Shown here piece by piece: positions 31,698-64,000 of a stretch of DNA of 64,000 bases (the stretch's first letter is position 1; each line of letters starts with the position of its first letter). This stretch comes from Acidimicrobiia bacterium. GTDB lineage: Bacteria > Actinomycetota > Acidimicrobiia > UBA2766. The notes beneath the pieces were generated by a model. It was given only the letters and a program-made list of their open reading frames with translations. It did no database searches and was not told the DNA's origin. The DNA lies in NCBI GenBank assembly GCA_020850945.1, contig JADZDR010000022.1, positions 1 through 64,000 on the forward strand, read 5' to 3'. The position numbers and the translations under genes are program-made.

Positions 31698-31743
31698 GTC
31701 TGGGTACCTGAGCGGCGATATATCGCCGCTCAGGTACCCAGAC
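31698..31743. repeat. Perfect 46-bp palindrome upstream of trpS
   Basis: Twenty-three bases on each side of the centre at 31720/31721 pair without mismatch and without a loop; arms begin GTCTGGGTACCT and meet at GATATATC. Outer imperfect extensions (CGTGG at 31694, CCACG at 31755) flank it. It lies in the 201-nt gap between the J-domain-like gene and trpS, both on the minus strand. No T-run follows either end, so a classical intrinsic terminator is doubtful. Candidates: dimeric-regulator operator, mRNA leader hairpin, or a site for DNA cruciform binding. Confidence 0.9.
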
Positions 31744-46710: not shown

Positions 46711-46711
46711 T

Positions 46712-47500: not shown

Positions 47501-47509
47501 CGGCTGTGA

Positions 47510-47902
47510 TCAGTCCTGTTCAGCCGTCTCGGACTCAAGCGAGCGCACGCTTCCGGGCAGACTCCGCGTCTTCCCCCCGTCGGCATCGAGCGCCGACGCG
47601 TCGACCAGGGGATCAGGGTCCGCGACGCCGCCTGTCGACGCGCGGCCTGGTGGCGCAACAGACGGTGCGTCGGTGAGCACGGACCGGAAGTCGACGGCTT
47701 CCTTGAAGTCGCGCTGCATCTGTGTCACGCCGTCGATGTCGACGACGTCGCGCAACTCGGCCTTCACGTTCTCGGAATGCCGCCTCAGCTCACGTAGCGC
47801 CTTGCCGACCTGGCGGGCGGCTTTCGGCAGCTTGTCCGGCCCGAGGACTACAAGAGCGACGACGGCTATGACGAGGATTTCCATCACTCCGAGGCTGGGC
47901 AT
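47510..47902 (-). CDS. tatB: Sec-independent translocase TatA/TatB-like
   Basis: A 130-residue single-span Tat component. ATG 47902 begins MPSLGVMEILVIAVVALVVLGPDKLPKAARQVGKALRELRRH, the hydrophobic helix, PDKLP hinge and amphipathic helix. The longer tail resembles TatB more than TatA. It lies just upstream of tatC, as expected. Confidence 0.88.
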   Translation of the reverse strand: MPSLGVMEILVIAVVALVVLGPDKLPKAARQVGKALRELRRHSENVKAELRDVVDIDGVTQMQRDFKEAVDFRSVLTDAPSVAPPGRASTGGVADPDPLVDASALDADGGKTRSLPGSVRSLESETAEQD

Positions 47903-47980
47903 GTCGTCCTCACACACGATTGGTCCGACCTGCCGCATCCTACTCGGGCAGGACCCCCGCCAATCGAGCCGTCCAGACGT

Positions 47981-48295
47981 TCAGGCGAGGAGGTGCAGCA
48001 TCCAGTCGTCCTGCTGGAGCTTGAGGTGGAAGTCGAGGAGATCGTCGTGGGTGATCACGGGCCCCGAGCGCTCTTCGTAGATCTCGGCAGGCAGATGCCA
48101 TATGTCGAGCTTCACGCCTCCGGCCACGAGCAACTGCACGATCCGGTCCTCGGCGTTCTTCGCGACGGCCGTCCGGCACTGTGGGCACGTGAAGTTGTAG
48201 GCCCCCGACCGATCGTCGGCACAGATGCGCACCTGCATGGCCTCCCGCGGGAGGACCACGTCCCCGCAGTTGGGACACGTTGCCCGGATGTTCAT
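47981..48295 (-). CDS. Small zinc-ribbon protein
   Basis: A 104-residue protein from ATG 48295. It holds CPNCGDVVLP and CPQCRTAV (two CxxC pairs, treble-clef like), followed by AEDRIVQLLVAGGVKLDIWHLPAEIYEERSGPVITHDDLLDFHLKLQQ. The C-terminal half is seen in actinobacterial proteins of unknown function. It is 78 nt upstream of tatB on the same strand and divergent from the histidine kinase. Confidence 0.75.
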   Translation of the reverse strand: MNIRATCPNCGDVVLPREAMQVRICADDRSGAYNFTCPQCRTAVAKNAEDRIVQLLVAGGVKLDIWHLPAEIYEERSGPVITHDDLLDFHLKLQQDDWMLHLLA

Positions 48296-48526
48296 CCGTC
48301 GCCCCCTCGTCTTCCGAATGCCCGACTGCCGAGTTGCGGTCTGCTGGGAGCGGTGCCGGCGCGGCACCCGCCTGCCAGAAATGGATCGGGCATGTCGAGT
48401 GTGTCGGCACGTCCCCTTTGCGACTTGAGCGAAATCGCCGCGGTCCGGGGTGTCCTCGCTGCCGTCTCAAGGCGGCGCCGCACGGACCGATACATACGTT
48501 GGCCAGGTCGATCCCACGCGGTGCAC

Positions 48527-50545
48527 ATGCGCAACCCGGAGCGGCGGGGGCAGGCTCCCGCCGGTGACGAACTCACTCAGATCTCGAACGCGGTCGGGGC
48601 ACTCGGTGCCGACCCCGACAACGCCGTATCCACGCTTCTCTCCCATGCCTCCGTCCTGCTCGGAACGCGCGAAGTCGGGTTGTTCCGCGTGGGACTGACC
48701 GGAAGCGCGTCCCTCATCGCAGGCACGATCTCAGGCGACCTCGCCGGCTTCGCGTCACGCACGCGATCCTCGACGCGGCCGCTCCTCGCCCAGACAGCGG
48801 ATGCAGTCGCAGGGGCCGGCGCGACCGGCGCCCGCGCGGTTCTGGCGACACCCGTCCGGCTCCGCCACCGGCCTGTGGGGGCTCTCGTCGCCGTTGCACG
48901 CACCGGCACCTTCGAGAGCCGCCACGTCTCCTCGGTCGTCGTCCTCGCCGACCTCGCTGCCCTCGTCCTGCAGATGGCCACTGCAGCCACGGTCGAGAAC
49001 CTCGTCACAGCCGGCGAATCCCTCGGTACCGTCCTCGAGAACAAGCAACTCCTCGAAGCCCTGCTCGACGGAGCGTGTCGTGTTCTCGGAGGAAACGGCG
49101 GCTTCGTCTGTCTCCTCGAAGAGGACACGCACAAGCTCCACACCGCCCTCTTCCGGCTGCTTCCCCGGGACCAGGTCGAAGCGACACTGGCGAACCCATC
49201 CTTCGCCGCGCTCCTGCACGAGATAGCCCCGCGCGTCGATGCACCCGCGCCCCACTCCCCGTTCGCGCCCCTCGAGGGAGCATGCCAGGGAATCGTGACC
49301 ATCCCGCTGCGGGCCGAGGGCAGGCCCGTCGGGCTCGTGTGCGCCGCACTACCCGAAGACAGCCAGCCCGACGCCACGTCCCTGCGACTCGCCGCAGTGC
49401 TCGGCCAGCACGCCGCCACCGCAGTGCGGCTCCTGTGGACGCAGAGCGCGACGGCTACACGCGAGGCCGAGCTCAAGGCAATCGTCGCGTCCTTCCCCGA
49501 CCCGATCGTCGTCGCCACACTCGCAGGGGAATGTGTCCTCATCAACCCGGCAGCAGAGATGCTGTTCGGGATCTCGAACGACTTCGAGCGGGGCCGGGCC
49601 GTGATCGGCCGCCTGCCGGGGGGGCTCGACGAGATGCTCTTGACCGGCGATCACGGTCCGCGAGACGTCACGCTCGGCACGCCGACCCCGGAACACTTCG
49701 TGGCGTCCGTGTCGAAGGTGACGACCAAGGACGCACGCGAGATCGGGCGGGTCCTCGTCCTGCACAACAAGTCGAAGGAGGAGCAGGCGGAGCGGGCTCA
49801 CGCCGACTTCGTCGCGGTCATCGGCCACGAGCTGCGCACCCCGCTCACGCTCATCAAGGGTTTCGTGAAGACCCTGATCCGCCGCGCCCGCGACATGCCG
49901 ACCGAGTCCGTGCTCGAAGCCCTCCAGACGATCGACGACCAGTCCCAGAACCTCGAGCACCTCATCGAGGATCTCCTCTTCCTCTCGCAGTCCGATCGGG
50001 CGGAATCACGCCTCTACTGCGAGTGGAGTGACATGGTGGCGTTCGTCCGCGACTTCGCGACGGCGGCGAGTGCTCGGCTCGGCCAGCGCTCCACACCTCG
50101 CGAGGTCCTGTTCCGGGCGCACACGATGGAGATCCCCCTCCACTTCGACCGCACGAAGGTCGAGCAGGTGCTCTCACATCTCCTCGACAACGCCCTCAAG
50201 TACTCGCAGGACAAGGTCCTCATCGAGGTGCAGCGCCATCCGGACCACGCCGAGGTCACCGTCACTGACTTCGGCATCGGCATCTACTCAGGAGACCTCG
50301 ACGCGATCTTCGAGCGCTTCACGCAGGTGAACTCCACATCGACTCGCGAACACGGCGGGACCGGAGTCGGCCTCTACATCTGCCGGCGTCTCGTGGAAGC
50401 CCACGGAGGCAGGATCTGGGTCGAATCCACGCTGGGACGCGGGTCGACGTTCCACTTCACGATTCCGTTGGACCTCGCCGTCGACGGCACGCCCCCTGGA
50501 GGGGCGAACCCACTCGGCGAAGCCGCTGCCGGCCTCCGCCCCTGA
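48527..50545 (+). CDS. Sensor histidine kinase with GAF and PAS domains
   Basis: A 672-residue kinase without clear membrane helices, so probably cytosolic. N-terminal GAF-like regions (about 20-150 and 165-300), a PAS-like region (AELKAIVASFPDPIVVATLAGECVLINPAAEMLFG), then the kinase core: H-box FVAVIGHELRTPLTLIKG with phospho-acceptor His434, N-box LLDNALKYS, G1 DFGIGI and G2 GGTGVGLYI. No response-regulator gene is adjacent, so it is an orphan here. ATG 48527 is the start; GTG 48521 is possible. Confidence 0.9.
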   Translation: MRNPERRGQAPAGDELTQISNAVGALGADPDNAVSTLLSHASVLLGTREVGLFRVGLTGSASLIAGTISGDLAGFASRTRSSTRPLLAQTADAVAGAGATGARAVLATPVRLRHRPVGALVAVARTGTFESRHVSSVVVLADLAALVLQMATAATVENLVTAGESLGTVLENKQLLEALLDGACRVLGGNGGFVCLLEEDTHKLHTALFRLLPRDQVEATLANPSFAALLHEIAPRVDAPAPHSPFAPLEGACQGIVTIPLRAEGRPVGLVCAALPEDSQPDATSLRLAAVLGQHAATAVRLLWTQSATATREAELKAIVASFPDPIVVATLAGECVLINPAAEMLFGISNDFERGRAVIGRLPGGLDEMLLTGDHGPRDVTLGTPTPEHFVASVSKVTTKDAREIGRVLVLHNKSKEEQAERAHADFVAVIGHELRTPLTLIKGFVKTLIRRARDMPTESVLEALQTIDDQSQNLEHLIEDLLFLSQSDRAESRLYCEWSDMVAFVRDFATAASARLGQRSTPREVLFRAHTMEIPLHFDRTKVEQVLSHLLDNALKYSQDKVLIEVQRHPDHAEVTVTDFGIGIYSGDLDAIFERFTQVNSTSTREHGGTGVGLYICRRLVEAHGGRIWVESTLGRGSTFHFTIPLDLAVDGTPPGGANPLGEAAAGLRP

Positions 50546-50563
50546 GCGGCGCCTCGCTCCCCG

Positions 50564-51778
50564 CTACCGGTCGAGGCCGCGCAGCATGAGGTTCCAGTAG
50601 AGGAAGGGCAGGCCGTACTTCTTGAGGTACCACATGTCCCGGCGGGGGCGTGTGGTGTCGATGAACGGGATCGTCGGCGTCGGGCGCATGCTGTAGTCGA
50701 ACTCCGCGAGGAGCATCTTGCCGCGGCCGGTCACGATGGGACAGGCCGAGTACCCGTCGTATGTCGCCGTGGGCTCACGACCCTCCATGGCGGCGAGGAG
50801 GTTCTCGGTGACCACCGGTGCCTGCTTGCGGACCGCCGCGCCCGTCTTCGAGTTGGGGCTGCTCGACGCGTCCCCGAGCGCGAAGACCTCCGGGTACTCG
50901 GGATGGCGCATCGTCCCCTGATCGACCTGGACCCATCCCTTCGGCTCTCCCGGGACCGCCAAGGCGGACTTCTTCACGAAATCCGGTGCACTCTGGGGCG
51001 GGGTGACGTGCATGAGGTCGTAGTCGATCGTGACCGTCGACCCTCCGCCTTCCCCCCGAACCGCGAGGACCGCCTGTCGCGACTCGGGACGAACCTCGAT
51101 CAACTCGTGTTGGTAGAGAACCTCGATCCCGTAGTCCGCGATCACGTCCTCGAGCGCGGCGGCGTACTCGGGAACGCCGAAGATGCCTCCCAGAGGTGTC
51201 GCGAAGATGACACGGGCGTCGCTGATGCCCTGGCGGCGGAAGTGGTCCGCGGCCATGTAGGCGATCTTCTGCGGGGCGCCCGCGCACTTGATCGGTCCGG
51301 CCGGCATCGTGAAGAGCGCCGTGCCGCCTTTGAACTCGCTGATGAACTGCCAAGTCCGTGGGGCGAGGTCGAAACGGTAGTTGCTCGACACGCCGTCGTG
51401 TCCGACAGCGCTCGCCATACCCGGGACGTCATCCCAGTCGAGCTGAATGCCGGGGCAGACGACCAGATAGTCGTAACCGACCTTGACGCCGGATCGGGTC
51501 GTGATCACACGGTTGGGGGCATCGATGTCCTCCGCCTCCTCCTGAAGCCAGCGCACCCCTTTGGGCATGACACTCGCCTCAGGTCGGGCGGTCTTGTCGA
51601 CCTGGGCCTCACCTGCCCCGACCAGGGTCCACAGCGGCTGGTAGAAGTGCGTCGCGGCAGGCTCGATCACCGCGACGTCATCCTCGCCCCGCCGTCGCAG
51701 GCGGGCGGCGACAGAGATCCCCGCCGATCCGCCTCCCACGATGACGATTCTGTGATGCAGGTTCTCCGCTCCGTTCAT
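50564..51778 (-). CDS. Sulfide:quinone oxidoreductase-like flavoprotein
   Basis: A 404-residue FAD enzyme of the SQR/FCSD family. FAD-binding GxGxxG in IVIVGGGSAGISVAA, an ATG-like motif near VVCPGI, and the second FAD contact VFALGDASSSPNSKTGAAVR. Cysteines at 165 (PIKCAGAPQ) and 346 (SACPIVTGRGKM) correspond to the catalytic pair of SQOR; the third cysteine of type I SQR is not in its usual place. A C-terminal amphipathic tail suggests membrane association. Oxidation of sulfide to the quinone pool is inferred. Confidence 0.87.
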   Translation of the reverse strand: MNGAENLHHRIVIVGGGSAGISVAARLRRRGEDDVAVIEPAATHFYQPLWTLVGAGEAQVDKTARPEASVMPKGVRWLQEEAEDIDAPNRVITTRSGVKVGYDYLVVCPGIQLDWDDVPGMASAVGHDGVSSNYRFDLAPRTWQFISEFKGGTALFTMPAGPIKCAGAPQKIAYMAADHFRRQGISDARVIFATPLGGIFGVPEYAAALEDVIADYGIEVLYQHELIEVRPESRQAVLAVRGEGGGSTVTIDYDLMHVTPPQSAPDFVKKSALAVPGEPKGWVQVDQGTMRHPEYPEVFALGDASSSPNSKTGAAVRKQAPVVTENLLAAMEGREPTATYDGYSACPIVTGRGKMLLAEFDYSMRPTPTIPFIDTTRPRRDMWYLKKYGLPFLYWNLMLRGLDR

Positions 51779-51839
51779 GCCTTCTCCTCTCCTCGCCCCC
51801 GCCGTCTGCCCGTCGATCGTCCACAGGCGGGTGAGCGTG

Positions 51840-52796
51840 TCACACGGACGACTCGCCGCGAGGGAGTCTTGCGGCTTCGTCTGTGAGTTGCCAAAGCGCT
51901 TCGGCCCTCGCTGCGACATCTTCGCGCAACCAGGCCGGTTCGACAGATCGGAGTGCCGAACCGACCTGGAGCACGAGCCGCACGAGGAACTCCCTGTCGG
52001 GGCTCGCCACGACCACCCGGTAACCGTCCCCGGCCGGCGCGACTTGCTCCAGGGGCACGCCGCGTACCACCCAGGCAGCCTCGGGTCCGAGCTCGAGGGT
52101 GGCCCTGAGGTCGTCGCGAGCAGCGGCATAACCGATCGAGATGTCCGCGTCGACGCGTTTCGCCTCCTCCTCGAGGAGGACCACCTCGCGGATGCGATCC
52201 GTGCGGAAACTGCGCATGGCGCCGGCATTGCGACACCACGCGGCGAGGTAGGTGCGTCCTGACATCGTCGCGAGCCGGCACGGGTCCACGACACGGACCG
52301 TCTCCTCGTTCCGGGCCGCCGACAGGTACGTGATCTCGATCGCCTTGCCGGCGGCGAGCGCGCGTTCGAGTGAGCCGAGCACGAAGTCGGGCTCGCGTTC
52401 GATCACGAGTGGCTCCTCGCCGACGGCCGCCTCGAGCTTCTCGGCCGCCCCGGCGAGCTCGGGAGTTCCCTCTCCACCCGGGAGGCCGAGCACGATGCGA
52501 GCCGCCGCCAGGGATCTGATCGCCTCGTACCTCGACATGCCGAAGGGCTGCTCCAGCGGTTCGGCACCCGTGAGCCAGATGCTCTCCCCGTCCACGTAGA
52601 CCTCGAAGAGGTCAGTCGGCGTGTACGGGGGGAGGCCGCACAGGAACAGCAGGTCGAGATCACGCAGGATCTCACCGGGGTCTGCGTCCATTTGGCGAGC
52701 CGCCTCGTCGACCGTCACGCCGGGGCGCGCCATGAGGAACGACGCGAGATCGAGCACGCGGCGCAGGCGCACGGTCGTCTTGTTCGCATCACTCAT
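51840..52796 (-). CDS. pafC: PafC-like WYL-domain transcriptional regulator
   Basis: A 318-residue protein with a WYL-type domain: ALAAGKAIEITYLSAARNEETVRVVDPCRLATMSGRTYLAAWCRNAGAMRSFRTDRI. The N-terminal winged helix begins TTVRLRRVLDLASFLMARPGVTVDEAARQM. PafB and PafC form a heterodimeric activator of DNA-damage genes in mycobacteria and are named for proteasome accessory factors. Overlaps pafB (ATGA), as in most actinobacteria. Confidence 0.9.
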   Translation of the reverse strand: MSDANKTTVRLRRVLDLASFLMARPGVTVDEAARQMDADPGEILRDLDLLFLCGLPPYTPTDLFEVYVDGESIWLTGAEPLEQPFGMSRYEAIRSLAAARIVLGLPGGEGTPELAGAAEKLEAAVGEEPLVIEREPDFVLGSLERALAAGKAIEITYLSAARNEETVRVVDPCRLATMSGRTYLAAWCRNAGAMRSFRTDRIREVVLLEEEAKRVDADISIGYAAARDDLRATLELGPEAAWVVRGVPLEQVAPAGDGYRVVVASPDREFLVRLVLQVGSALRSVEPAWLREDVAARAEALWQLTDEAARLPRGESSV

Positions 52797-53695
52797 GCGA
52801 CGACTTGCCTCGTGTGCGTGAGCTCTGCCCGCATCTCGGCGACGGCGCTGTCCGGACTCGTCACGACACCGTCACCACCGAGGCCCTGCACCCACACCAC
52901 GAACGCGGTCATGTCCCGGACCGCGACGGCCAGACACGGCCATTCGGTCCCGTCCAGGCTGACGGAATCGACGCGGGTTCCCTGTGTCTCCCGCTCGACC
53001 CACCACAGGCGTTCCGGCCTGACCGCGACCACGACTTCGACCGGGTCGCGACGCCCGACTTCCCAAGGGCGACGCGGGACGGGTTGCCCCGATCGGGACT
53101 CCGGACGCGCGAACCCGCCTGCTCCACCGACGGAGACCCCACCCACGATGCGGTCGACACGGAAGCTCCGCTCATCGGCCGCGTCGAGATCGCGCCCCAC
53201 GATGTACCACGTGCCGGCACGGAACACGAGGGTGCGCGGCTCCACGCGTCGCACTTCGCCTGGTCCGGACAGACCCCCGTATTCGAACGACATGCTGCGA
53301 CGACCCGTGACGGCGACGAGGAGCGTCGCGACGAGCGGGTCGACGAGTCCTCCCCCGCTGTCCTCATCGCCGTCCTCACCCCAGACGAGGCCCGAGGCAA
53401 CCGCGACCGCCGACCGCTCTGCAACCGTCAGGCCGGGATCAGGGATGGTCGCATCCTTGGGAATGCGGTAGCCGGGTCTCGCGCCCTGCGTCCCGAGGGC
53501 GTCACGCGATTCCGCCCGCACGTCGATTCCCATCTCGCGCAGCGCCTTCTTGTCCCGCTCGAAGGATCGTCTCACGGCCTCCTCTGTCGATCCGGCGTAA
53601 CCGGGCACGCTCCCCACGATCTCCTCCAAGCCGAGGGGATGATCCGTGTCGGCGAGGAGGGCGACGAGGTTCACGAGACGCTCGAGCCGATCCAT
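52793..53695 (-). CDS. pafB: PafB-like WYL-domain transcriptional regulator
   Basis: A 300-residue partner of PafC. ATG 53695 begins MDRLERLVNLVALLADTDHPLGLEEIVGSVPGY, the winged helix, followed by VRRSFERDKKALREMGIDV. The WYL region is TGRRSMSFEYGGLSGPGEVRRVEPRTLVFRAGTWYIVGRDLDAADERSFRVDRI. The frame is open to 53923 without family similarity. Confidence 0.9.
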   Translation of the reverse strand: MDRLERLVNLVALLADTDHPLGLEEIVGSVPGYAGSTEEAVRRSFERDKKALREMGIDVRAESRDALGTQGARPGYRIPKDATIPDPGLTVAERSAVAVASGLVWGEDGDEDSGGGLVDPLVATLLVAVTGRRSMSFEYGGLSGPGEVRRVEPRTLVFRAGTWYIVGRDLDAADERSFRVDRIVGGVSVGGAGGFARPESRSGQPVPRRPWEVGRRDPVEVVVAVRPERLWWVERETQGTRVDSVSLDGTEWPCLAVAVRDMTAFVVWVQGLGGDGVVTSPDSAVAEMRAELTHTRQVVA

Positions 53696-53756
53696 CGGGC
53701 GAGTGTAATTCGGGCCCGGAATCCACTCGGGGGATGCATCTGCAATACACTCCGCG

Positions 53757-54671
53757 GTGGTGAAGGACGACCTCGACACCGACGCTGAGATCGACGTCAT
53801 CGGGAAGCTCGCCGAGGACGCGGGCGCGTTGCTCCCGGCCCTGCGCGACCCCGAGACGGATTCCGAACCGCGCCTCCAGGACGTCGACCATTGGGGACGC
53901 AGCGAGCACATGCGCGAGTTCATACGCCGCGCGTACGACCCGGTCTACCGTTACTGGTTCCGGGCCGAGCTCGACGGGCTCGAGAACGTGCCCCGTGACG
54001 GCGGGGCCCTCCTCGTCGCCAACCATGCCGGATCGGTTCCGTCGGATGCACCCGTGATCATGCACGGCATCGAGGAGGAGTTGGGGCGCCCCCTGTACGG
54101 CCTCGCCGAGCACCTCTTTCGCACCATCCCCGTGATAGGGACCCTCTGGGCAAGGGGTGGCGGTGTCGCGGCCCACCCCGACAACGCCCACCGTCTCCTC
54201 CACGACGAGGGTCAACTCGCCCTCGTGTTCCCCGAGGGGGCGAAGGGCCCGGGCAAGACGTACGCAGAGCGTTACCGGCTGCGCCGATTCGGGCGCGGCG
54301 GGTTCATCGAGGTCGCGATGCGAGCCGGTGTCCCCGTCGTTCCCATCGCCGTGATGGGAGCGGAGGAGTCGATGCCCAACCTCACGACTATCCCCGGGCT
54401 CGCCAAGGCGTTCGGCCTGCCGTACGTCCCGATCACCCCGCAGATGCTCGCAGCCCCGTTCTTCGGGCCGCTCGCACCCGTGGCGACGATGCTGTACCTG
54501 CCGGCGAAGTTCCGTGTGAAGTTCCTCCCACCGGTGCACTTCCCCGACAAGCCGAACATGCCCCGCTACTCCAAGGCGCGGATCATGGAGTATGCGGACC
54601 TCGTCCGCGACATGATCCAGGCGGAGCTCTTCGAGATGCTGCGCGCGCGGCGATCGGTCTGGTTCGGATGA
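53757..54671 (+). CDS. Lysophospholipid acyltransferase family protein
   Basis: A 304-residue acyltransferase, read from GTG 53757. The active-site block is VANHAGSVPSDAPVIM (the NHxG...D pattern typical of this mycobacterial-type branch), with FPEGAKGPGKTYAERYRLRRFGRGGFIEVAM and VPVVPIAVMGAEESMP downstream. The next gene (SDR) overlaps by ATGA, matching the Rv0502/Rv0501-like pair of mycobacteria. Substrate unknown. Confidence 0.87.
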   Translation: MVKDDLDTDAEIDVIGKLAEDAGALLPALRDPETDSEPRLQDVDHWGRSEHMREFIRRAYDPVYRYWFRAELDGLENVPRDGGALLVANHAGSVPSDAPVIMHGIEEELGRPLYGLAEHLFRTIPVIGTLWARGGGVAAHPDNAHRLLHDEGQLALVFPEGAKGPGKTYAERYRLRRFGRGGFIEVAMRAGVPVVPIAVMGAEESMPNLTTIPGLAKAFGLPYVPITPQMLAAPFFGPLAPVATMLYLPAKFRVKFLPPVHFPDKPNMPRYSKARIMEYADLVRDMIQAELFEMLRARRSVWFG

Positions 54672-55696
54672 AACGGATCCTCATCACCGGACTCGCCACG
54701 TATTGGGGTGGGCGCCTCGCCCAGGTCCTCGAGGAACAGCCCGCCGTCGACCTGATCGTCGGCGTCGACCGCCACGCACCGACCGTCGAGCTCGACCGCA
54801 CCGAGTTCGTCCGGGTACGGGAGGACTACGGCGCGCTGCGCCGCATCGTGGAGGCGGCGGAGATCGACACGATCCTGCACACGCATCTTCTCGTCGATTC
54901 CACGGCTGCATCGAGCAGGCAAGTCCACGAGCTCAACGTGATCGGGACGATGAATCTCCTCGCCGCAGCCGCGACGACCGATTCGCCCGTGCGGCGTCTG
55001 ATCGTGAAGTCATCGACCCTGGTCTACGGGGCGGGTCGAGGCGACCCGCAGATATTTCGCGAGACGGCCCGACGCTCGAACTCGCCCCGGACCCAGGTCG
55101 AGCGGAGCCTTCTCGAGGTCGAGGACTACGTGCGCGACTTCGCCGAGGACAACCCCCACGTGTCGGTCACGCTCCTCCGCGTCGCGAACGTGATCGCGCC
55201 GGATTTCGACACGCCGATGCTGAACGCTCTCCACATGCCTGCCGTTCCCGCCGTGTTCGGCTTCGATCCCCTCGTTCAGTTCGTCCACGTCGAGGATTGC
55301 GTCTCCGCCCTCGCCTACGCGGTCGAGAACGATCTGCCCGGCATATTCAACGTCGCCGCCGACGGTGTCATCCCCTGGAGCGAGGTACGGGGGATCATCG
55401 GCAAGCCCGCCATGTGGCTGCCGCCGCTAGGTACACAGGCGGCCGCCGGCATGTTGCGCCGGTCGCACATCGTCGACCTCCCCGACGAGTTCCTCTCGCT
55501 CCTGCGGTTCGGACGCGGAGTCGACAACGTCCGCCTGAAGCAGGTCGGTTTCAGGTATCGCTATTCGACGGTCGGCTGCCTGTACGACTTCGCCGAGGGT
55601 CTCCGCCTCCGCCGGGTCATCGGTGCCGCCGAGCAGCCCACCTACGAATATCAGGAGGACCTCGAGCAGTTCCTCCACCGACACACGGTCAGCTGA
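54668..55696 (+). CDS. Atypical extended SDR (NAD-dependent epimerase-like)
   Basis: A 342-residue Rossmann protein of the extended SDR group. The N-terminal ITGLATYWGGRLAQ lacks the middle glycine of TGxxGxxG. The usual YxxxK catalytic pair is not evident: the region after VYGAGRGDPQIF reads ETARRSNSPRTQVERSLLEVEDYV. QFVHVEDCVSAL and FNVAADGVIPWSEV match epimerase-like substrate regions. Possibly a non-catalytic or NAD-sensing lipid protein. Coupled to the acyltransferase. Confidence 0.85.
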   Translation: MKRILITGLATYWGGRLAQVLEEQPAVDLIVGVDRHAPTVELDRTEFVRVREDYGALRRIVEAAEIDTILHTHLLVDSTAASSRQVHELNVIGTMNLLAAAATTDSPVRRLIVKSSTLVYGAGRGDPQIFRETARRSNSPRTQVERSLLEVEDYVRDFAEDNPHVSVTLLRVANVIAPDFDTPMLNALHMPAVPAVFGFDPLVQFVHVEDCVSALAYAVENDLPGIFNVAADGVIPWSEVRGIIGKPAMWLPPLGTQAAAGMLRRSHIVDLPDEFLSLLRFGRGVDNVRLKQVGFRYRYSTVGCLYDFAEGLRLRRVIGAAEQPTYEYQEDLEQFLHRHTVS

Positions 55697-56900
55697 CGGC
55701 TTCGGGCTCGAATCCGATACCGGAGAGGAACTCGCCGAGCCGGACACGGTAGGCCCTGCGATTGAGGTGGATCTGGTGCGACCCACGGCGCCAGGCCACC
55801 GCTGCCCCCTTCCAGTGCTCCCCGAGGAGGTGGGCGTGATACGGGCGCACGAGACGGTCGTCCTGTGTCGCAACGATCAAGTGGCGCTTGCTGTCGAGCC
55901 GGGACGGGTACTGCAGGGGTGTGTGACATGCCATGTGGCGGCGCAGGTCGTCGAGATCCCAGCCGATTCCACGCAGGAGGAGGGTCAGGACATGGCCGAA
56001 CGGAGAGAGATCCGCGATGAGATCGGGGAGGCTGGCCGGGGCCGCAACCGGGATCGAGAACGCGAGACGCGCATCGACCGCGGCCAGAAGCGCGGCCAGA
56101 TAACCGCCGAGGCTCACTCCCTTCACCCCCGCTTGGGGGACGCCACTCTCGAACAGGTGCGACAGGAGCGCACGCACGTCCGAGACCGAGTGGGCGATGA
56201 CCTCGGCGAGATGCGCGACATCGAGGCTCAGGTAACTCCAACCGTCGATGAACTCCGCCCGCGGGCCGTGAAAAGGAAGCTGGATCAGAGCCACGTCGTA
56301 ACCGTCGACGTAGAGGCTGCGCACATCGAAGAACTCGACGTTGATGAGATGGCTGCCCGCCTGAAAGCCGTGGATGCACACGATCGTGGGGCGAGGACCG
56401 GCCGCGTGCCGCCACCACCTGGCATGCACGGTTCTGTTGCGAACGCCGGCCACGTAGCCGTCGCGCAGGGCCGGGTTGACAGGCACGAACGTGCTCGGGA
56501 ACCTCACGTCGACGACGGTGCCCCGCTCCGGCGTGGCCAAGATGTGGCGAGCAGGCGAGACCTCAACTGCGGCGGGCGACGGAGGCATGTGGAAGAACGC
56601 GGAGGTGTCGGAGGCGAAGCGGGGTGAGGCATAGAACGACCATCGCTCGAGGAGGCTCTCCGCCTTCGTCATGCCGTACAGGATCGTGTCCGGGGAGCTC
56701 GCGAGCAGAATGGCGGACAGGGGCAGGCTGAGCACTCTCTCGAGACCGGCTGCGAGCCGCGCCGGCCCTGAACGATCGGATCTTGCGGCCTCCGGCGGGC
56801 GGACCTGGCGGACGGCGTCCACGTCCAGGCGCGCCAACCACATACGCTCGCGTTGCGCGCGTTCCCGGGCAGATATGGGCACCTCGGCCGTCCCGTTCAT
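55689..56900 (-). CDS. Alpha/beta hydrolase, likely esterase
   Basis: A 403-residue hydrolase. ATG 56900. Long N-terminal helical part, then IVCIHGFQAGSHLINVEFF, the nucleophile in KGVSLGGYLAALLAAVDARLAFSIPV (GxSxG) and the C-terminal His in RRGSHQIHLNRRAYR. An Asp (TQDDRLVRP) completes the triad. It sits between SDR and WS/DGAT genes, so lipid-ester hydrolysis is a plausible role. Overlaps the SDR end by 8 nt (convergent). Confidence 0.87.
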   Translation of the reverse strand: MNGTAEVPISARERAQRERMWLARLDVDAVRQVRPPEAARSDRSGPARLAAGLERVLSLPLSAILLASSPDTILYGMTKAESLLERWSFYASPRFASDTSAFFHMPPSPAAVEVSPARHILATPERGTVVDVRFPSTFVPVNPALRDGYVAGVRNRTVHARWWRHAAGPRPTIVCIHGFQAGSHLINVEFFDVRSLYVDGYDVALIQLPFHGPRAEFIDGWSYLSLDVAHLAEVIAHSVSDVRALLSHLFESGVPQAGVKGVSLGGYLAALLAAVDARLAFSIPVAAPASLPDLIADLSPFGHVLTLLLRGIGWDLDDLRRHMACHTPLQYPSRLDSKRHLIVATQDDRLVRPYHAHLLGEHWKGAAVAWRRGSHQIHLNRRAYRVRLGEFLSGIGFEPEAVS

Positions 56901-56984
56901 GGTCGCTTGCCCCTCGAGGATGCGGATGTCACCCCGTATCGTTGCACACAGCCCGATCGACAGCCATGTCCAGAGGTGGACCAG

Positions 56985-58352
56985 ATGGACCGTCTCAGCC
57001 CGCTCGATGCCTCGTTCCTGTTCGTCGAGGGTGCAGGGACTCCCATGCACATCGCGTGCGTGGCCGTCTGTGCCGGACCACCTCCGTCCTATGACGAGAT
57101 CTCGGCGAGCATCGCCGCGAAGCTGGCGTTCATACCCCGCTACCGCCAGAAGGTGCGCTTCGTCCCCTTCGGGCTCATGCGGCCCGTGTGGGTCGACGAC
57201 CCGCACTTCAACCTCGACTACCACCTCCGCCACACCGCTCTGCCGCCCCCGGGCGGGCGAGACGAGCTGCGTGCGCTAGTCGGACGTGTCATGGCGCAAC
57301 ACCTCGACCGCCACAAGCCACTCTGGGAGGTGTGGGTCGTCGAAGGCCTCGGGGACGACACATGGGCGATCCTCACGAAGGTTCACCACTGCATGGTCGA
57401 CGGGATCGCGGGGAGTGACCTCATGGCCGTCCTGTTCGATCTCACGCCGGATGCACCCCGAGCGGAACCGGGGAGTTGGGAACCAGACACTGAGCCGGAC
57501 GATGCCCGACTCCTCCTCGAGGCAGTGCGCGATATCGGCTTCCTCCCCCGTGAACAGATCCGTGTGCTCCGCACCCTCTCTCGCATGCCCGCCAAGACAC
57601 TCGCCGAGGTGGGCAAGGGTGTCCGGAACTGGCTCCGCGTGGTGGAACGCACTCCGCCCACGTCACTCACGGGGCCGTCCGGGCCGCATCGCCGCTGGGA
57701 CTTCGCTCACGTGTCGCTCCCCCGCGTGAAGGACATAGCCCACGCGGCGGGCGTCACGGTCAACGATGTCGTCATGACGGCCGTGACGAAGGGCTTCCGC
57801 GATCTCCTCCTCGCGCGGGACGAGGATCCGACTGAGGCCCGGATCCGATCGTTCGTCCCTGTGTCGCTGCGCCGCCCGGACGAGCGCAACCGCCTCGACA
57901 ACCGCGTGGCGGGCATGATCGCTGTCCTGCCCGTTGACGTGGACGATCCCGTGGGGCGCCTCGACCGCGTCCGTGAGCAGATGGGAGCGCTGAAGCAGTC
58001 CGGGGAGCCCCGTGCCGCCGCGCTCGTGGAGGAGCTCGCCGTGTTCGCTCCACCCGCCATCCTCGCGTGGGGGGAGAGAGCGGCAGCACGCCTCGGGCAG
58101 GGGCCGATGACGACCGTGACGACCAACGTTCCCGGACCCCAGCTCCCCCTGTACGTCTGCGGGCGTCGCCTCGTCGAGCTGTATCCCTACGTCGGGATCG
58201 GGGGTGGGACCCGTCTCAACGTCGCGGTCTTCTCCTACGACGGGCACCTCGGCTTCGGCATCACAGGCGACTGGGAGTCGGCCCCTGACATCGGGATCCT
58301 CACGCGAGGAATCACGTCTGCTGTCGACGAGCTCGAGTCGGCGCTCTTGTAG
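56985..58352 (+). CDS. Wax ester synthase / diacylglycerol acyltransferase
   Basis: Bifunctional acyltransferase making triacylglycerol and wax esters for storage. The 455-residue product has the active site HHCMVDG (134-140), the N-terminal SPLDASFLFVE, RPVWVDDPHFNLDYHLR, and the C-terminal family block MTTVTTNVPGPQLPLYVCGRRLVELYPYVGI. Length is typical. The following DUF3866 gene converges and overlaps by 41 nt. Confidence 0.93.
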   Translation: MDRLSPLDASFLFVEGAGTPMHIACVAVCAGPPPSYDEISASIAAKLAFIPRYRQKVRFVPFGLMRPVWVDDPHFNLDYHLRHTALPPPGGRDELRALVGRVMAQHLDRHKPLWEVWVVEGLGDDTWAILTKVHHCMVDGIAGSDLMAVLFDLTPDAPRAEPGSWEPDTEPDDARLLLEAVRDIGFLPREQIRVLRTLSRMPAKTLAEVGKGVRNWLRVVERTPPTSLTGPSGPHRRWDFAHVSLPRVKDIAHAAGVTVNDVVMTAVTKGFRDLLLARDEDPTEARIRSFVPVSLRRPDERNRLDNRVAGMIAVLPVDVDDPVGRLDRVREQMGALKQSGEPRAAALVEELAVFAPPAILAWGERAAARLGQGPMTTVTTNVPGPQLPLYVCGRRLVELYPYVGIGGGTRLNVAVFSYDGHLGFGITGDWESAPDIGILTRGITSAVDELESALL

Positions 58353-59421
58353 CGGCGGCGGCATGTGCCCCCGCTGCCGCCGCCGTGAGCCAGAAGACGG
58401 GGTCGGCGCTGACGGGACGGCCCATCGACGTCGGCTCGATGCCGCCCGCATCGAGCAGGGAGAGGGCGGCACCTGGGTCGGCCGTCACGATGCTGTGCAC
58501 ACCCTCGAGCGTGGTGAGCTGCTCTCGCATCGCGGCCTCGCGGACGGGGTCGCCTTGCGGGAGGACGATCTCGGCGAGGGGGTCGAGGGGCGGCGTCGCC
58601 CGGAGGCTCTCGAGGGAGTGGTGGCTGATCCCCCTGTGTCTCGTGCGCGAGTCAGCGTCCGAGCAGCGCAGGCAGGCGATCGGCACACCGCCGAGTGCGG
58701 CCGTCTCCGTGAGGACGTGGGAGACCTCGCGGGCGGTCGTCGCCGTCGACAGGCCGGTGCCCACGATCCCCGGGCCCATCGCGACGACGGCGACGTCGGC
58801 TCCGGCATGCCTCGCCGCGAGCAGTGCAGATGCGACCGTGACCGCTTCCAGGTCGCCTCCGAACGCGTGACCTGCCGTCACGGTCATGTCGACGAAACCG
58901 GCGGCCGTGAGGTCCGCGCACAGATCGGACAAGGCGAGGGGCAGGGCGGCACCGTCGGTCATCACGTAGGCGACGACCAGGTCGCCTCCTGCGGACGACG
59001 CGCGGATTCCGGCAGTCACAGCCGCGAGCTGGGAATGGAGGCTTGCCGCCACGACCGGCATCCCGCCCAGATGCTCCTCCTGCATGTGAGTGTGCAGGGG
59101 CGAGGCAGCCTCGGAGGCGACGAGGACGTCTGTCTGCAGCGAGGTGTATCGCAGCTTCATGATGTGGCCACCGGAGAGGGAGCTGAACTCACGGCGGCCG
59201 TTGACCCAGTGCACGACGTGCCAGCCACCTGTACCGAGTCCGAGGTCGACGGCTGTCGTGTTGCACACGACCTCGTCCCCGACCTCGACGCTGCCGATGA
59301 GGTCGGGGTAGTTGACGGCGGCGCTGGATTCGCCGGCGCCGTCGAGCACGACTCTCACACGCTGCAGGCCGCGCCGCTCCGAGATGATCTCGCTCACCCG
59401 ACCCGTGTGGAAGCTCGGCAC
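58312..59421 (-). CDS. DUF3866-family protein
   Basis: A 369-residue actinobacterial protein of DUF3866, starting at GTG 59421. Characteristic segments are HIMKLRYTSLQTDVLVASEAASPLH, VVAYVMTDGAALPLALSDLCADLTAAGF, VTAGHAFGGDLEAVTVASALLAARHAGADVAVVAMGPGIVGTG and LRCSDADSRTRHRGISHHSLESL. Function unknown; often near proteasome genes in this phylum. Downstream of pafA on the same strand. Confidence 0.88.
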   Translation of the reverse strand: MPSFHTGRVSEIISERRGLQRVRVVLDGAGESSAAVNYPDLIGSVEVGDEVVCNTTAVDLGLGTGGWHVVHWVNGRREFSSLSGGHIMKLRYTSLQTDVLVASEAASPLHTHMQEEHLGGMPVVAASLHSQLAAVTAGIRASSAGGDLVVAYVMTDGAALPLALSDLCADLTAAGFVDMTVTAGHAFGGDLEAVTVASALLAARHAGADVAVVAMGPGIVGTGLSTATTAREVSHVLTETAALGGVPIACLRCSDADSRTRHRGISHHSLESLRATPPLDPLAEIVLPQGDPVREAAMREQLTTLEGVHSIVTADPGAALSLLDAGGIEPTSMGRPVSADPVFWLTAAAAGAHAAAATRAPTRARRQQT

Positions 59422-59457
59422 GAACCGACCCTAGTAGGGGGTCACGCCTCGACCGAC

Positions 59458-59504
59458 ACGTGGGCGTACTCAACCACGACAATTGTGGTTCAGTACGCCC
59501 ACGT
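59458..59504. repeat. Hairpin repeat, copy 3 of 4
   Basis: 47 nt with the same architecture as the 6.9-kb pair: ACGTGGGCGTA / TACGCCCACGT outer arm, CTC/CAG internal loop, AACCAC/GTGGTT inner arm closed by a G-T pair, loop ACAAT. Downstream of pafA. Confidence 0.9.
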
Positions 59505-59528
59505 AAGTCGGGCAACAGCCAGAAGGTC

Positions 59529-59575
59529 ACGTGGGCGTATCCAACCACACCAGATGTGGTTCAGTACGCCCACGT
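59529..59575. repeat. Hairpin repeat, copy 4 of 4
   Basis: 47 nt, 71 nt after copy 3. Outer arm ACGTGGGCGTA / TACGCCCACGT, internal loop TCC/CAG, inner arm AACCAC/GTGGTT closed by A-T, loop CCAGA. It lies 22 nt beyond the pafA stop codon and may form part of its transcript end. Confidence 0.9.
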
Positions 59576-59596
59576 GCGGGGCGGGGAGGGGTCGGG

Positions 59597-60952
59597 TCAG
59601 AGGGATGCGATGAGGCGTTCCACACGCTCGTCGTGGGCGCGGAAGGGATCCTTGCAGAGGACCGTGCGCTGCGCCTGGTCGTTCAGCTTGAGGTGGACCC
59701 AGTCCACCGTGAAGTCGCGTCGACGTTCCTTGGCCCGCTTGATGAACTCGCCCCGCAGACGGGCCCGGGTCGTCTGCGGGGGCGCGAGGACGGCCTCCTC
59801 GATGTCGGCGTCGTGCACGACACGGTCGACGAGACCCTTGCGCTCGAGCAGGTAGTAGATCCCGCGTTTGCGGTTCACGTCGTGATATGCCAGATCCATC
59901 ATCGCGATCTTGGGATCGAGCAGGTTCAGGCCATCCCGCTCACGGGCAGCCTCGATGATGCGGTGCTTCGCCACCCAGTCGCACTCCCGATAGAGCGAGA
60001 ACGGATCCTTCTCGAGGCCCCGCACGACGTGCTCCCACATACCCAACGCCTTCTCCTCCAACGGCCCGAGTCCCCGATGGTCCGCGTACTTGAGGGCACG
60101 TTCGAGATACTCGATCTGGATGTCGAGCGCCGACGCCTCACGACCACTCGCCATGCGGATCTTGCGCCGGCACGTGATGTCGTGACTGATCTCGCGGATC
60201 GCGCGGATCGGGTTCTCGAGCGTCATGTCCCGCATGACCGTGTCCTCTTCGAGCATCCGCAAGAGGATGGAGGTTGATCCGACCTTCAGGAACGTGACGT
60301 ACTCGCTCATGTTGGAGTCACCGACGATCACGTGCAGGCGCCGAAAGCGCTCGGCGTCGCTGTGCGGCTCGTCGCGGGTGTTGATGATCGGCCTGCTCCG
60401 CGTCGTAGCTGACGACACACCCTCCCAGATGTGCTCGGCCCGCTGGCTCAGGCAGAACATGGCGCCACGCGCGGTCTGGAGGACCTTGCCCGCTCCCGCC
60501 CACACCTGGCGTGTCACGAGGTACGGGATGAGGGTGTCGGCATACTGCTGGAACTCGCCGTGCCGGCTCATGAGGTAGTTCTCGTGGCACCCGTAGGAGT
60601 TCCCGGCGGAGTCCGTGTTGTTCTTGAAGAGGTAGATCTCGCCTCGGATCCCCTCCTCCTGGAGCCGGGCCTCGGCGCTTGCGAGGAGGCGCTCGAGGAT
60701 GCGTTCCCCCGCCTTGTCGTGGCACACGAGGTCGTAGATGGAGTCGCACTCGGGGGTTGCGTACTCGGGGTGGCTCCCCACATCCAGGTAGAGGCGGGCA
60801 CCGTTCTCCAGGAATACGTTCGACGAGCGACCCCACGACACGACGCGCCGGACGAGGTAGCGGGCGACCTCGTCCGGGCTCAGCCTGCGTTGCCCGCGCA
60901 GCGTGCACGTGACGCCGTACTCGTTCTCCAGGCCGAAGATCCGCCGTTCCAA
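59597..60952 (-). CDS. pafA: Pup--protein ligase PafA
   Basis: ATP-dependent ligase that attaches Pup through its C-terminal Glu to substrate lysines. The 451-residue product, read from TTG 60952, begins [20 protein letters not shown], the PafA hallmark with catalytic Glu in FGLENEYG. Further conserved parts: [53 protein letters not shown] and [18 protein letters not shown]. The larger frame to 61543 has no PafA similarity. Weak leader GGACC before TTG. Confidence 0.95.
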
Positions 60953-61063
60953 TGCGGGTCCAGTGTAGGTGTCGCCCGGGCAGGGCGACCGCGGTGTCCG
61001 GGATCGGGACTCGGTGAGCCCCACGTCGGGGTGTCGTGGGGTGGGCGCCGCTACGATGAATCC

Positions 61064-61414
61064 ATGCTCAAGGCCGTGATCCTGCTGCGGCGCCGGGCCG
61101 GTGTCTCGCCGGACGAGTTCGCGATGCACTTCCGGGTGCACATGCGTCCCCTGATCGGAAGCCTCCCCGGCGTGTCGCGAATCGTCGTCTCCGACGCGAT
61201 CGCAGGCCCGGGCGGGACACCCGCCTACGACGGAATGGCCGAGTTCTGGTTCGAGAGCATCGAGGCCGTGCAGCGCCTCGTCGAATCGGCAGAGGCACGT
61301 GAGATCGAGGCACGCCTCGCCGATTTCGTCGACATGGACACCTACGAGACCTTCCTCACGGTCGAGCACGAGGTCGCCGTAGATCCCATGCCCCGCACCC
61401 CGACGCAGGCATGA
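61064..61414 (+). CDS. EthD-like dimeric alpha-beta barrel protein
   Basis: A 116-residue protein from ATG 61064. The EthD-like pattern is [43 protein letters not shown], followed by [19 protein letters not shown]. This fold occurs in degradation-linked and monooxygenase accessory proteins. The role is unknown. It lies divergently between pafA and prcA, and this placement inside a proteasome cluster is probably incidental. Confidence 0.85.
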
Positions 61415-61442
61415 CATCCACCTGCGCCTGATTCGGCCCTCG

Positions 61443-62183
61443 TCAGGCCTCGGAGTCCTTCTCCTCCGCCTGTGCCACAGGCTCGATCTCGTCGCCCCCG
61501 AGCATCTCGGCGAGCTCGTCGTGGCCCATGCGACTGAAGGCACGCCCCGGGTCGCTCCGATCGAGACGGGCGACCTCGAGGGTCTTCACGCCGAGGGGGT
61601 TACCCATCTGGTCGGCCATGGCCTGCACGGCGGTTCGGAGCGCCTCCCGATCGCCCATGCCGGGTGAGAAGTGGTCCTTCACCTTCTCCAGCAGCTCGTC
61701 GGCTGCACCTCCCATCGTCACGACGTCCCCCTCGTCGGAGATCTGGCCGTCGAACGTGACCCGGTACAGCCGATCGTCGCTGCCGTCCGACTCCGGGCTG
61801 CCCACCTCGGCCACGAGGAGCTCGACCTCCATCGGCTTGAGCTCGTGCGTGAAGATCTGGCCCAGCGTCTGGGAGTAGACCCCGGCGAGCGCCCGCGCGT
61901 TCACGTCCTCACGGGAATAGGCGTAGCCCGTGAGGTCCGCCCGGCGCACACCGGCTACACGGAGGGCCTCGAACTCGTTGTAGCGACCCACGGCCGCGAA
62001 GGCGATGCGGTCGTAGATCTCGGAGACCTTGTGGAGCGTCGGCATCGGGTTCTCGGCCACGAAGAGGATGCCCGTGTCGGTCTGCCAGACCACGATGGAC
62101 CGGCCCCGGGCTATGCCCTTGCGGGCGTACTCGGCACGGTCTGCGAGGACCTGCTGCGGTGAGACGTAGAACGGGGTGGTCAT
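61443..62183 (-). CDS. prcA: Proteasome alpha subunit
   Basis: Outer-ring subunit of the 20S proteasome, 246 residues. Conserved parts: [31 protein letters not shown] (gate and helix H0), [62 protein letters not shown]-terminal acidic tail. ATG 62183 overlaps the prcB stop by ATGA. Confidence 0.96.
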
Positions 62184-62998
62184 CGCACCTCACCTCCGTA
62201 ACGCTCCCGCAGGCCTTCGACCGCGCTCTCGAAGATCGAGCGGATCGTCGCATCGTCGACCGGGCGGAAACCGTCGGGGTCGACGACGGCCACGTTCGGG
62301 TAGATGCCCCGCACGACGTCAGGGCCGCCCGTCGCGGCGTCCTCGTCGGCTGCCTCGAACAGTGCCTCGAGGCCGATCGAGACGGCGGCGTCCTCGGTCA
62401 GTCCCTCGCTCCAGCGGCCCTTGATGAAGCTGCGGGCGTCCCTGCCGCCCGAGCCGGTGGCGTGGAAGTCCCCCTCCTCGTAACGTCCGCCCGTCATGTC
62501 GTACTTGAAGATGCGCCCGGTCGCGTGCAGGACGTCATACCCGGCGAAGAGAGGGATGACTCCGAATCCCTGCATCGCGGCCGGCATGTTCTGGCGGATC
62601 ATCTCGGCGAGTCGGTTCGCCTTGCCCGTCAGGGAGAGGCTCCGCCCCTCGATCTTCTCGTAGTGCTCGAGCTCGACCTGGAAGAGACGCACCATCTCGA
62701 CGGCGGGCCCCGCTGCTCCCGCGATCGCGACGGCGGCGTGGGCGTCGGCTCTGAAGACCTTCTGGATGTTGCGGCTCTCGATGGCCATGCCCATCGTCGC
62801 CCGCCGGTCGCCGGCCATCACGATGCCCGACTCGTACCTGAGTGCGAGGATCGTCGTCGCATGTGGGCCGAGGTCTTCGGCCAGAGGGGCGGCGAACCGC
62901 CGGTCGAGGACCTCCGGATTCGTTGCTCTCAGGTGGGCGACGAAGGAGGAACCGAGTCCCCAACGTGTCGCGTCGCCCAGCCCGCCCGTGTCAGTCAC
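62180..62998 (-). CDS. prcB: Proteasome beta subunit (catalytic)
   Basis: Inner-ring peptidase with an N-terminal threonine nucleophile. The 272-residue precursor starts at GTG 62998 (AGTAGGAC leader). The propeptide (about 47 residues) ends HA|TT, and the mature chain begins TTILALRYESGIVMAGDRRATMG with Thr48. Other conserved parts: IESRNIQKVFRADAHAAVAIAG, GYDVLHATGRIFKYDMTGG and ATGSGGRDARSFIKGRW. Immediately follows pup. Confidence 0.96.
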   Translation of the reverse strand: MTDTGGLGDATRWGLGSSFVAHLRATNPEVLDRRFAAPLAEDLGPHATTILALRYESGIVMAGDRRATMGMAIESRNIQKVFRADAHAAVAIAGAAGPAVEMVRLFQVELEHYEKIEGRSLSLTGKANRLAEMIRQNMPAAMQGFGVIPLFAGYDVLHATGRIFKYDMTGGRYEEGDFHATGSGGRDARSFIKGRWSEGLTEDAAVSIGLEALFEAADEDAATGGPDVVRGIYPNVAVVDPDGFRPVDDATIRSIFESAVEGLRERYGGEVR

Positions 62999-63005
62999 TG
63001 CAGTC

Positions 63006-63203
63006 CTACTCCCCACCCTTCTGGATGTAGTTGCGCACGAACTCCTCGGCGTTCTCCTCGAGGACCGCGTCGATCTCGTCGAGGAGCTCGTCTGTCTCCT
63101 CCTTGAGCTTCTCCGCCCTCTCGACGCCGGAGTCGTCGAGATCCTCGATGTCCTCGGCCGGTTCCTCTCTGCGGGATACCTGCCGCCTCTCCTGCTCAGC
63201 CAT
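63006..63203 (-). CDS. pup: Prokaryotic ubiquitin-like protein Pup, GGE terminus
   Basis: 65-residue disordered protein modifier. AEQERRQVSRREEPAEDIED at the N-terminus, the coiled-coil ATPase-binding part ERAEKLKEETDELLDEIDAVLEENAEEFVRNYIQKGG, and the C-terminal Glu (GAG codon) instead of the Gln found in many species. Ending in Glu means that Dop deamidation is not required before PafA ligation. ATG 63203 has ACGGAG upstream; 149 nt separate it from dop. Confidence 0.96.
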   Translation of the reverse strand: MAEQERRQVSRREEPAEDIEDLDDSGVERAEKLKEETDELLDEIDAVLEENAEEFVRNYIQKGGE

Positions 63204-63352
63204 GATTCTCCGTCCCTAGGCTCGACCTGCTCGGTGACCCTGGTGCAGGCGGGGTGCAATTATGCCGCCGCCCGCCGCGTCCGGTGTGCACTCCATTATG
63301 CAGTCGTATCGGCACTGTTCTCCGCCCGCTGTCGCGAATCCACCCTCGACGC
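63204..63352 (-). promoter_or_regulatory. pup leader region with candidate -10 elements
   Basis: 149 nt upstream of pup. On the minus strand two CATAAT hexamers occur (plus 63295-63300 and 63259-63264), 36 nt apart in similar surroundings (GCATAATGG, GCATAATTG). They resemble -10 boxes for pup-prcB-prcA, but a well-spaced -35 is not obvious. Possibly two promoters. Confidence 0.3.
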
Positions 63353-64000
63353 CTATTGCCCGAGGGCTTCGAGCAGGGCCTCGGGTGATTCGCTCGACTC
63401 GAGGAGATCCCCCACGATCTCCTTCGTGCCGCGGCGCGGTTCGAGCATGGGCACACGACGCAGCGAGTCCTCGCCCACGTCGAAGACGATGGAATCCCAG
63501 TTCGCAGCGACGATGGAGTTCGGGAAGCGCTCGAGGCACCGACCGCGGAACCACGCCCGCGTGTCGGCGGGCGGGGTTACGGCCGCTTCTTCGATCTCCG
63601 CCTCCCCCAGGATGCGCTCGAGCCGGCCCGAGTCCATGAGCTTGTGGGCGATGCTGCGGCGGGGGTCGACGTCGTGGTACTGGAGGTCGATCAGTTTGAG
63701 TCTGGGAGACGACCAGTCGAGCTCGTTCTTGTGCCTGTAGGACTCGAGGAGGCCGAGCTTCGTCGGCCAGTCGAGGACCCCGTCGAGTTGCATGGGGTCT
63801 GCCTCGAGAGCAGTCAGCACGCTCTCCCACCTGTCGAGGACGTCGTCGTACACGGCATCGAGTTGGATGTCGGCCTCGTGCAGGTACTTGCGGACCCGGT
63901 CGTGGTACTCCCACTGGATCTCGACCGGCGTCGCCCGCGTGCCGTCGGTGAGCTGGAGGAGCTTGCGGCATGTCGGGTCGTGGCTCACCGCATGGATGGC
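63353..64000 (-). CDS. dop: Depupylase/deamidase Dop (3' part, partial)
   Basis: C-terminal part of Dop, about 215 codons; the gene continues beyond 64000. The visible sequence AVSHDPTCRKLLQLTDGTRATPVEIQWEYHDRVRKYL, LDWPTKLGLLESYR, LKLIDLQYHDVDPRRSIAHKLMDSGRLERILGEAEIEEA and TRAWFRGRCLERFPNSIVAANWDSIVFD is typical of Dop (paralogous to PafA). GTG 63988 is an internal codon, not the start. Dop removes Pup from substrates. Confidence 0.93.
   Translation of the reverse strand, partial: AIHAVSHDPTCRKLLQLTDGTRATPVEIQWEYHDRVRKYLHEADIQLDAVYDDVLDRWESVLTALEADPMQLDGVLDWPTKLGLLESYRHKNELDWSSPRLKLIDLQYHDVDPRRSIAHKLMDSGRLERILGEAEIEEAAVTPPADTRAWFRGRCLERFPNSIVAANWDSIVFDVGEDSLRRVPMLEPRRGTKEIVGDLLESSESPEALLEALGQ

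Follow-up and report, generated by a model that had tools for sequence, protein, structure and literature searches.

Many bacterial families of palindromic repeats have no known mobiliser, among them the CGTC-tagged REPs, for which a dedicated transposase is not known (PMC3733652). In REP-RAYT systems, RAYT genes are flanked by their cognate REPs and co-evolve with them (PMC2817692). On the protein side, AbiEi of Streptococcus agalactiae recognises a pair of 23-bp inverted repeats separated by 3 bp, which it binds cooperatively while bending the DNA (PMC7319586), and VsrA of Caulobacter triggers the SOS response where cells lack a methyltransferase (PMC12907096).

The palindromes described here include a pair 3′ of pafA in a 64,000-nt stretch of an Acidimicrobiia genome (the whole stretch is called the window below). 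In common with REP-RAYT systems (PMC2817692), these palindromes are extragenic and scattered over gene ends, a single gene is bracketed by its cognate palindrome, and palindrome and enzyme diverge together. In contrast to REPs, which use a Y1 HUH enzyme and are 20-40 in length, the present palindromes go with an AbiEi-DUF559 (Vsr/REase-fold) enzyme and measure 42-50 bp, with no GTAG tag, with direct and helically phased arrays and with a gene stop codon inside the palindrome; furthermore, the REPs flanking RAYT genes are inverted, whereas the flanking copies are direct here (for the 47-nt palindrome in ATB1 and for the 50-nt one, see below). The CGTC REPs are likewise REP-like palindromes without a known transposase (PMC3733652), but they have 8-9 bp stems and a CGTC tag and are mostly alphaproteobacterial, whereas the present family has arms of 20 nt, carries no tag and comes with a candidate enzyme. 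The operator of the type IV toxin-antitoxin system AbiE offers a geometry close to that of the 47-bp dyad with its 20-nt arms (PMC7319586), and its protein resembles the AbiEi-like N-terminal half of ours; AbiEi operators, however, are single and lie upstream of abiE, whereas the copies here number in the dozens, are dispersed and lie mainly at 3′ ends, and the protein carries a nuclease domain. VsrA belongs to the same nuclease domain class (Vsr-like/DUF559 endonucleases), and the available part of its report describes no tie to palindromes or dispersed repeats (PMC12907096).

A 47-nt palindrome family at gene 3′ ends

The window holds four copies of the 47-nt palindrome in two pairs, with the following neighbours:

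59458-59504, plus strand: 47-nt palindrome copy 3, arms ACGTGGGCGTACTCAACCAC / GTGGTTCAGTACGCCCACGT, 71 bits
59529-59575, plus strand: 47-nt palindrome copy 4, direct tandem, 71 nt from copy 3, 70 bits
59597-61417, minus strand: pafA (Pup ligase; Pup_ligase E 3e-157), its 3′ end adjoining copy 4
58312-59421, minus strand: DUF3866 gene, the next after pafA, starting 36 nt from copy 3
6943-6989, plus strand: 47-nt palindrome copy 1, between convergent genes
7004-7050, plus strand: 47-nt palindrome copy 2, direct tandem, 61 nt from copy 1, spacer repeated downstream
5886-6920, plus strand: alpha/beta hydrolase gene, ending 22 nt before copy 1
7075-8160, minus strand: gcvT (aminomethyltransferase), ending 24 nt from copy 2

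The two hairpins at 59458-59575 have the loops (ACAAT and CCAGA), the closing pairs (G-T and A-T) and the start-to-start distance of 71 nt given in the initial annotation, and copy 4 lies 21 nt from the pafA stop codon. The likeness to the 6.9-kb pair that was also claimed there holds for length, each copy being exactly 47 nt, and fails for layout, the two spacings (61 versus 71 nt) being 10 nt apart. Half-site patterns for one arm occurred 8 times in the window against 0.07 expected from shuffles, and those for the other arm 8 times against 0.00. Folding of single 47-nt hairpins yields -33 to -35 kcal/mol (z about -8); the pair, folded on the strand of pafA, forms one 122-nt structure of -83 kcal/mol (z -10.7).

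By its PafA relatives, the source genome falls in the class Acidimicrobiia. A covariance model search of this genome (3.9 Mb in 97 contigs, 98.5% complete; labelled G000) recovered at least 65 copies at 42 loci, comprising 21 singletons, 19 pairs and 2 triples; because half of the loci are singletons, the earlier statement that the hairpin always occurs as a pair is wrong. The ATB1 MAG (G001), the sole other genome of the same genus compared, contains about 79 copies in 60 loci with shifted arms: copies of both genomes share the outer arm ACGTGGGCG as well as the inner CAC...GTG, and arm positions 10-13 differ en bloc, reading TAC/T in the source genome and GAT in ATB1. The covariance model found no copy in two other genera of the same family, the outer arms had no exact match in 56 further genomes of the class, and the exact arms of the 47-nt palindrome were absent beyond the source genome from GTDB genome contigs and 59 relatives; an Rfam scan returned, at gathering scores, a tRNA and nothing else.

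Placement in intergenic space after gene ends, as the initial annotation had proposed, is borne out, since 38 of the 42 loci are fully intergenic and the rest overlap a gene end. By gene context the loci divide into 14 convergent, 21 codirectional, 3 divergent and 4 overlapping an open frame, and copy orientation relative to genes shows no clear bias (10:8 and 15:7). The median distance after the stop codon is 26 nt in the source genome and 28 nt in ATB1, these distances being approximate because genes were called with a purpose-written codon-usage script; at several ATB1 loci a palindrome arm itself apparently supplies the stop codon. The flanks of the 47-nt copies in both genomes carry a symmetric skew over some 30-40 nt, C-rich on the 5′ side and G-rich on the 3′ side, which accompanies the copies whatever the gene context and is not seen after stop codons that lack a copy; the C-rich and G-rich flanks are not mutually complementary.

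Such placement, with 14 of 42 loci between convergent genes and folding energies of -33 to -44 kcal/mol, would suit a bidirectional terminator or 3′-end stabiliser that serves the host, in which hairpins after stop codons end transcripts arriving from either side. We regard this as quite unlikely. No terminator-like site was found in the 18 kb around the pair (window positions 46000-64000), and the flanks of the copies are C- or G-rich with no T-tract; moreover, the strict 47-nt length and the arm sequence are kept across copies, helical phasing of the repeats (see below) has no role in RNA, only about 42 of several thousand gene ends carry the palindrome, and most loci are absent from the congener.

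The arms themselves bear on the same point. Pairing covariation, which had been put forward as a check on the hairpins, did not appear within either genome, where the arms show no compensatory changes, and at several positions the ATB1 arms are significantly less complementary than chance. The arms of the 47-nt family follow a shared half-site and not each other, as expected for protein recognition. Pair statistics taken between the two species were rejected as a measure of covariation, since they mostly reflect the arm change between these species, and a stem extending into the flanks was ruled out. The G-T pairs of the ATB1 hairpins are concentrated on one strand per copy (P=0.0002, from few independent events), which is suggestive of strand-specific folding or mismatch recognition.

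Phased direct arrays and turnover between two species

Start-to-start distances between neighbouring copies took few values in the source genome, namely 61 (15 cases), 62 (4), 71 (1) and 72 (3), and a wider set in ATB1, namely 60, 62 (8 cases), 63, 71, 72 (2), 73, 83 (2), 91, 94 and 104. These spacings follow approximately 62 + 10.5k bp (60-63, 71-73, 83, 94, 104), indicating that the copies of an array lie on one face of the DNA. Rayleigh tests near 10.5 bp gave R values of 0.97 for the source genome and 0.89 for ATB1 (each P<1e-4 versus uniform spacing); without the 60-63 mode R was 0.89, and the 11 distinct values alone gave P=0.00015. At L010:1623-1690 the second copy is followed, at a distance of 62 nt and so again on the helical grid, by a third that is decayed and partly interrupted. 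The same grid recurs in other palindrome families, with spacings of 62 and, in another family, 63-64 in the genome labelled G003, of 62 in a second ATB1 family and in a third family of the source genome, and of 62, 63 and 72 in unrelated members of the phylum.

Neighbouring copies are direct without exception (22 of 22 in the source genome and 19 of 19 in ATB1), none being alternating or inverted; as pairs are also not obligatory, the BIME-like dimer of hairpins suggested in the initial annotation is not supported as the unit. Copies are more alike within arrays than between loci (identity 0.96 versus 0.84 in the source genome), and some array spacers are partial duplications of the flanks. 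The arrays therefore grow by local duplication, with a period that nonetheless stays on the helical grid.

Comparison of the two species revealed turnover. Among the ATB1 loci first examined, two have a copy at the orthologous place in the source genome (pafA and the L178/L195 locus), and at the other examined loci the orthologous sites are empty or decayed. ATB1-type half-sites (ACGTGGGCGGAT) occur only twice in 424 kb of the source genome, at L191:12033 and L203:12955, and both coincide exactly with positions whose ATB1 orthologues hold intact pairs. Given these relics, copies at such loci are ancestral, some have decayed, and a new arm subtype has spread in the source genome.

Gain and loss of short inverted-repeat elements between species would also be seen if the palindromes were MITEs of an ordinary DDE transposon with ends ACGTGGGCG. 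Target-site duplications, however, gave weak signals only (best z 3.6-4.2 among 45 correlated tests; identity 0.35-0.37 versus 0.25-0.26), internal dyad motifs in the ends and phased arrays are atypical of MITEs, and in both genomes the gene between these ends encodes an AbiEi-DUF559 protein and no transposase. We therefore consider this reading very unlikely.

AbiEi-DUF559 genes bracketed by palindromes

In each of the two genomes one AbiEi-DUF559 gene is bracketed by the 47-nt palindrome (G000 contig C32, the L195 locus; G001 contig C224, the L247 locus). At L195 a segment of about 1 kb between palindromes at 9479 and at 10505 + 10567 encodes an AbiEi-like protein that carries a DUF559 / REase_MTES_1575 domain; aligning L195:9426-10645 with ATB1 L178:12043-12262 showed that the ATB1 site contains the palindrome pair only and is missing the AbiEi-DUF559 segment. 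At L247 palindromes at 137 and 1217 flank a homologous, apparently frameshifted gene. The proteins match the domains AbiEi, DUF559 and REase_MTES_1575 (Vsr/REase fold), their nuclease part resembles the solved relatives 3hrl and PvuRts1I, and the catalytic-looking residues ExD...VExDG are conserved.

The association extends to other palindromes, the first of which is also represented in the window:

31700-31741, no strand assigned: second-family palindrome, perfect 42 bp, CTGGGTACCTGAGCGGCGATATATCGCCGCTCAGGTACCCAG, cognate of another AbiEi-DUF559 gene, on contig C35 of the source genome

This 42-bp palindrome is unrelated to the 47-nt family and has 55 copies in the source genome, about 45 of them identical, which are also found at gene 3′ ends; none was found in 20 relatives. 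Its cognate gene, C35:117393, lies between copies at 117300 and 118360. The outermost base pair of the family covaries (27/28; T-A 21, A-T 6), so that pairing or arm-to-arm copying may matter there. Elsewhere, the ATB1 gene on contig C434 has its own 50-nt palindrome family in tandem on both sides, and the G003 genes on C230 and C27 have GTTGGA... palindromes on both sides. The G003 genes on C11 and C32 have tandem palindromes on the 3′ side (the flank examined, or the other flank being cut by a contig end), and the gene on C93 of the source genome has palindromes upstream only. Of the G003 palindromes, two are dispersed over the contigs sampled. The stop codon falls within the 3′ palindrome or at its border in 12 of 15 bracketed genes, and protein identity correlates with palindrome-arm identity (Mantel r=0.66, P=0.00005; 11 genes), indicating that palindrome and protein diverge together.

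The initial annotation had pictured REP-like palindromes that are dispersed outside genes, near gene ends, and served by an enzyme encoded elsewhere in the genome. That much stands, but the enzyme associated with the family is the AbiEi-DUF559 nuclease and not the RAYT-like transposase suggested there. REP/BIME elements moved by a RAYT (Y1 HUH) transposase would likewise be extragenic gene-end palindromes in dozens of copies with a bracketed enzyme gene in the genome, and RAYT genes are flanked by cognate REPs in the same manner (PMC2817692). Nevertheless, the PF01797 (Y1 HUH) profile had no match in this 98.5% complete genome, whereas 5 of 14 control genomes matched; of the 57 copies aligned, nearly all have the ends ACGTGGGCG...CGCCCACGT, with no GTAG or CGTC tag; the arrays are direct and never head-to-head; and the bracketed enzyme is a DUF559 nuclease. 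A RAYT mover is thus extremely improbable.

A dyad of two ~20-bp half-sites, repeated at phased tandem spacing, could instead mark where a nucleoid or regulatory protein of the host, AbiEi-like or not, binds to organise the DNA, the nuclease gene being a bystander caught in an array; the genome-wide shift of arm specificity between the species, with two loci keeping their position, would fit such sites. We judge this unlikely, since the palindrome family that brackets a nuclease gene differs from gene to gene, the stop codons of these genes lie inside the palindrome, unlike those of a bystander, and few loci are common to both species.

The 47-nt hairpins are probably the dispersed, non-autonomous end palindromes of an AbiEi-DUF559 selfish element, spread through protein binding and nuclease action. 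The element would be about 1.1 kb long and would consist of one gene, in which an AbiEi-like DNA-binding part with a winged helix is joined to a DUF559 nuclease part (Vsr-like REase fold) and which is bracketed by its own palindrome and has its stop codon inside the downstream copy. By analogy with AbiEi at its 49-bp operator, the AbiEi half would bind two ~20-bp half-sites as a cooperative pair, and neighbouring sites on the same DNA face may favour higher-order binding; helical phasing predicts such cooperativity, which is directly testable. The nuclease half would nick or cut DNA and thereby drive dispersal, palindrome copies arising locally, as tandem duplications, and at new gene 3′ ends, where a stop-providing and strongly folding palindrome would be harmless and may stabilise or terminate transcripts. 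Several observations weigh against such an element: target-site duplications gave weak signals only, 18 of 28 homologues across the phylum had no shared flank repeat under the criterion used below, the C93 gene has palindromes on its upstream side alone, the ATB1 gene looks frameshifted, and arm covariation is absent within each genome in the 47-nt family. The copies that flank AbiEi-DUF559 genes could in part be autoregulatory operators.

AbiEi-DUF559 genes across the Actinomycetota

AbiEi-DUF559 proteins were found in 104 of 296 Actinomycetota genomes, often in several copies. Among 28 loci with enough flanking sequence, 10 genes shared an exact repeat of at least 15 nt between their 400-bp left and right flanks, compared with 1 of 460 control segments, and several of these ten repeats fold into hairpins; the other 18 of the 28 homologues had no shared flank repeat under this criterion. 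A stricter test for perfect palindromic 10-mers on both sides gave 1 of 29 versus 0 of 575 controls, and the looser criterion, with its own control set, was chosen after this result. A DUF559 gene on a Tsukamurella plasmid has a flank repeat of 14 nt only.

On balance we lean towards the broader reading that the AbiEi-DUF559 proteins, present in about one third of the sampled Actinomycetota genomes, serve as the enzymes of a class of mobile elements not recognised before, each dispersing a 42-50 bp palindrome of its own to the 3′ ends of genes and building helically phased arrays, which would constitute an HUH-independent route to REP-like repeats. A search of an open-access library found no paper that ties DUF559 to palindromes or mobility. 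If correct, this reading would provide repeats that lack a known mobiliser with one from an enzyme class that has no known DNA-dispersing role, would explain the multi-copy DUF559 genes of Actinomycetota, and would offer natural pairs of a DNA-binding protein and a long dyad site for biochemistry. A further G003 family, AAACGCGGG...CCCGCGTTT, forms direct pairs and triples 63-64 bp apart (L273, L279, L281, L282, L283 and L285).
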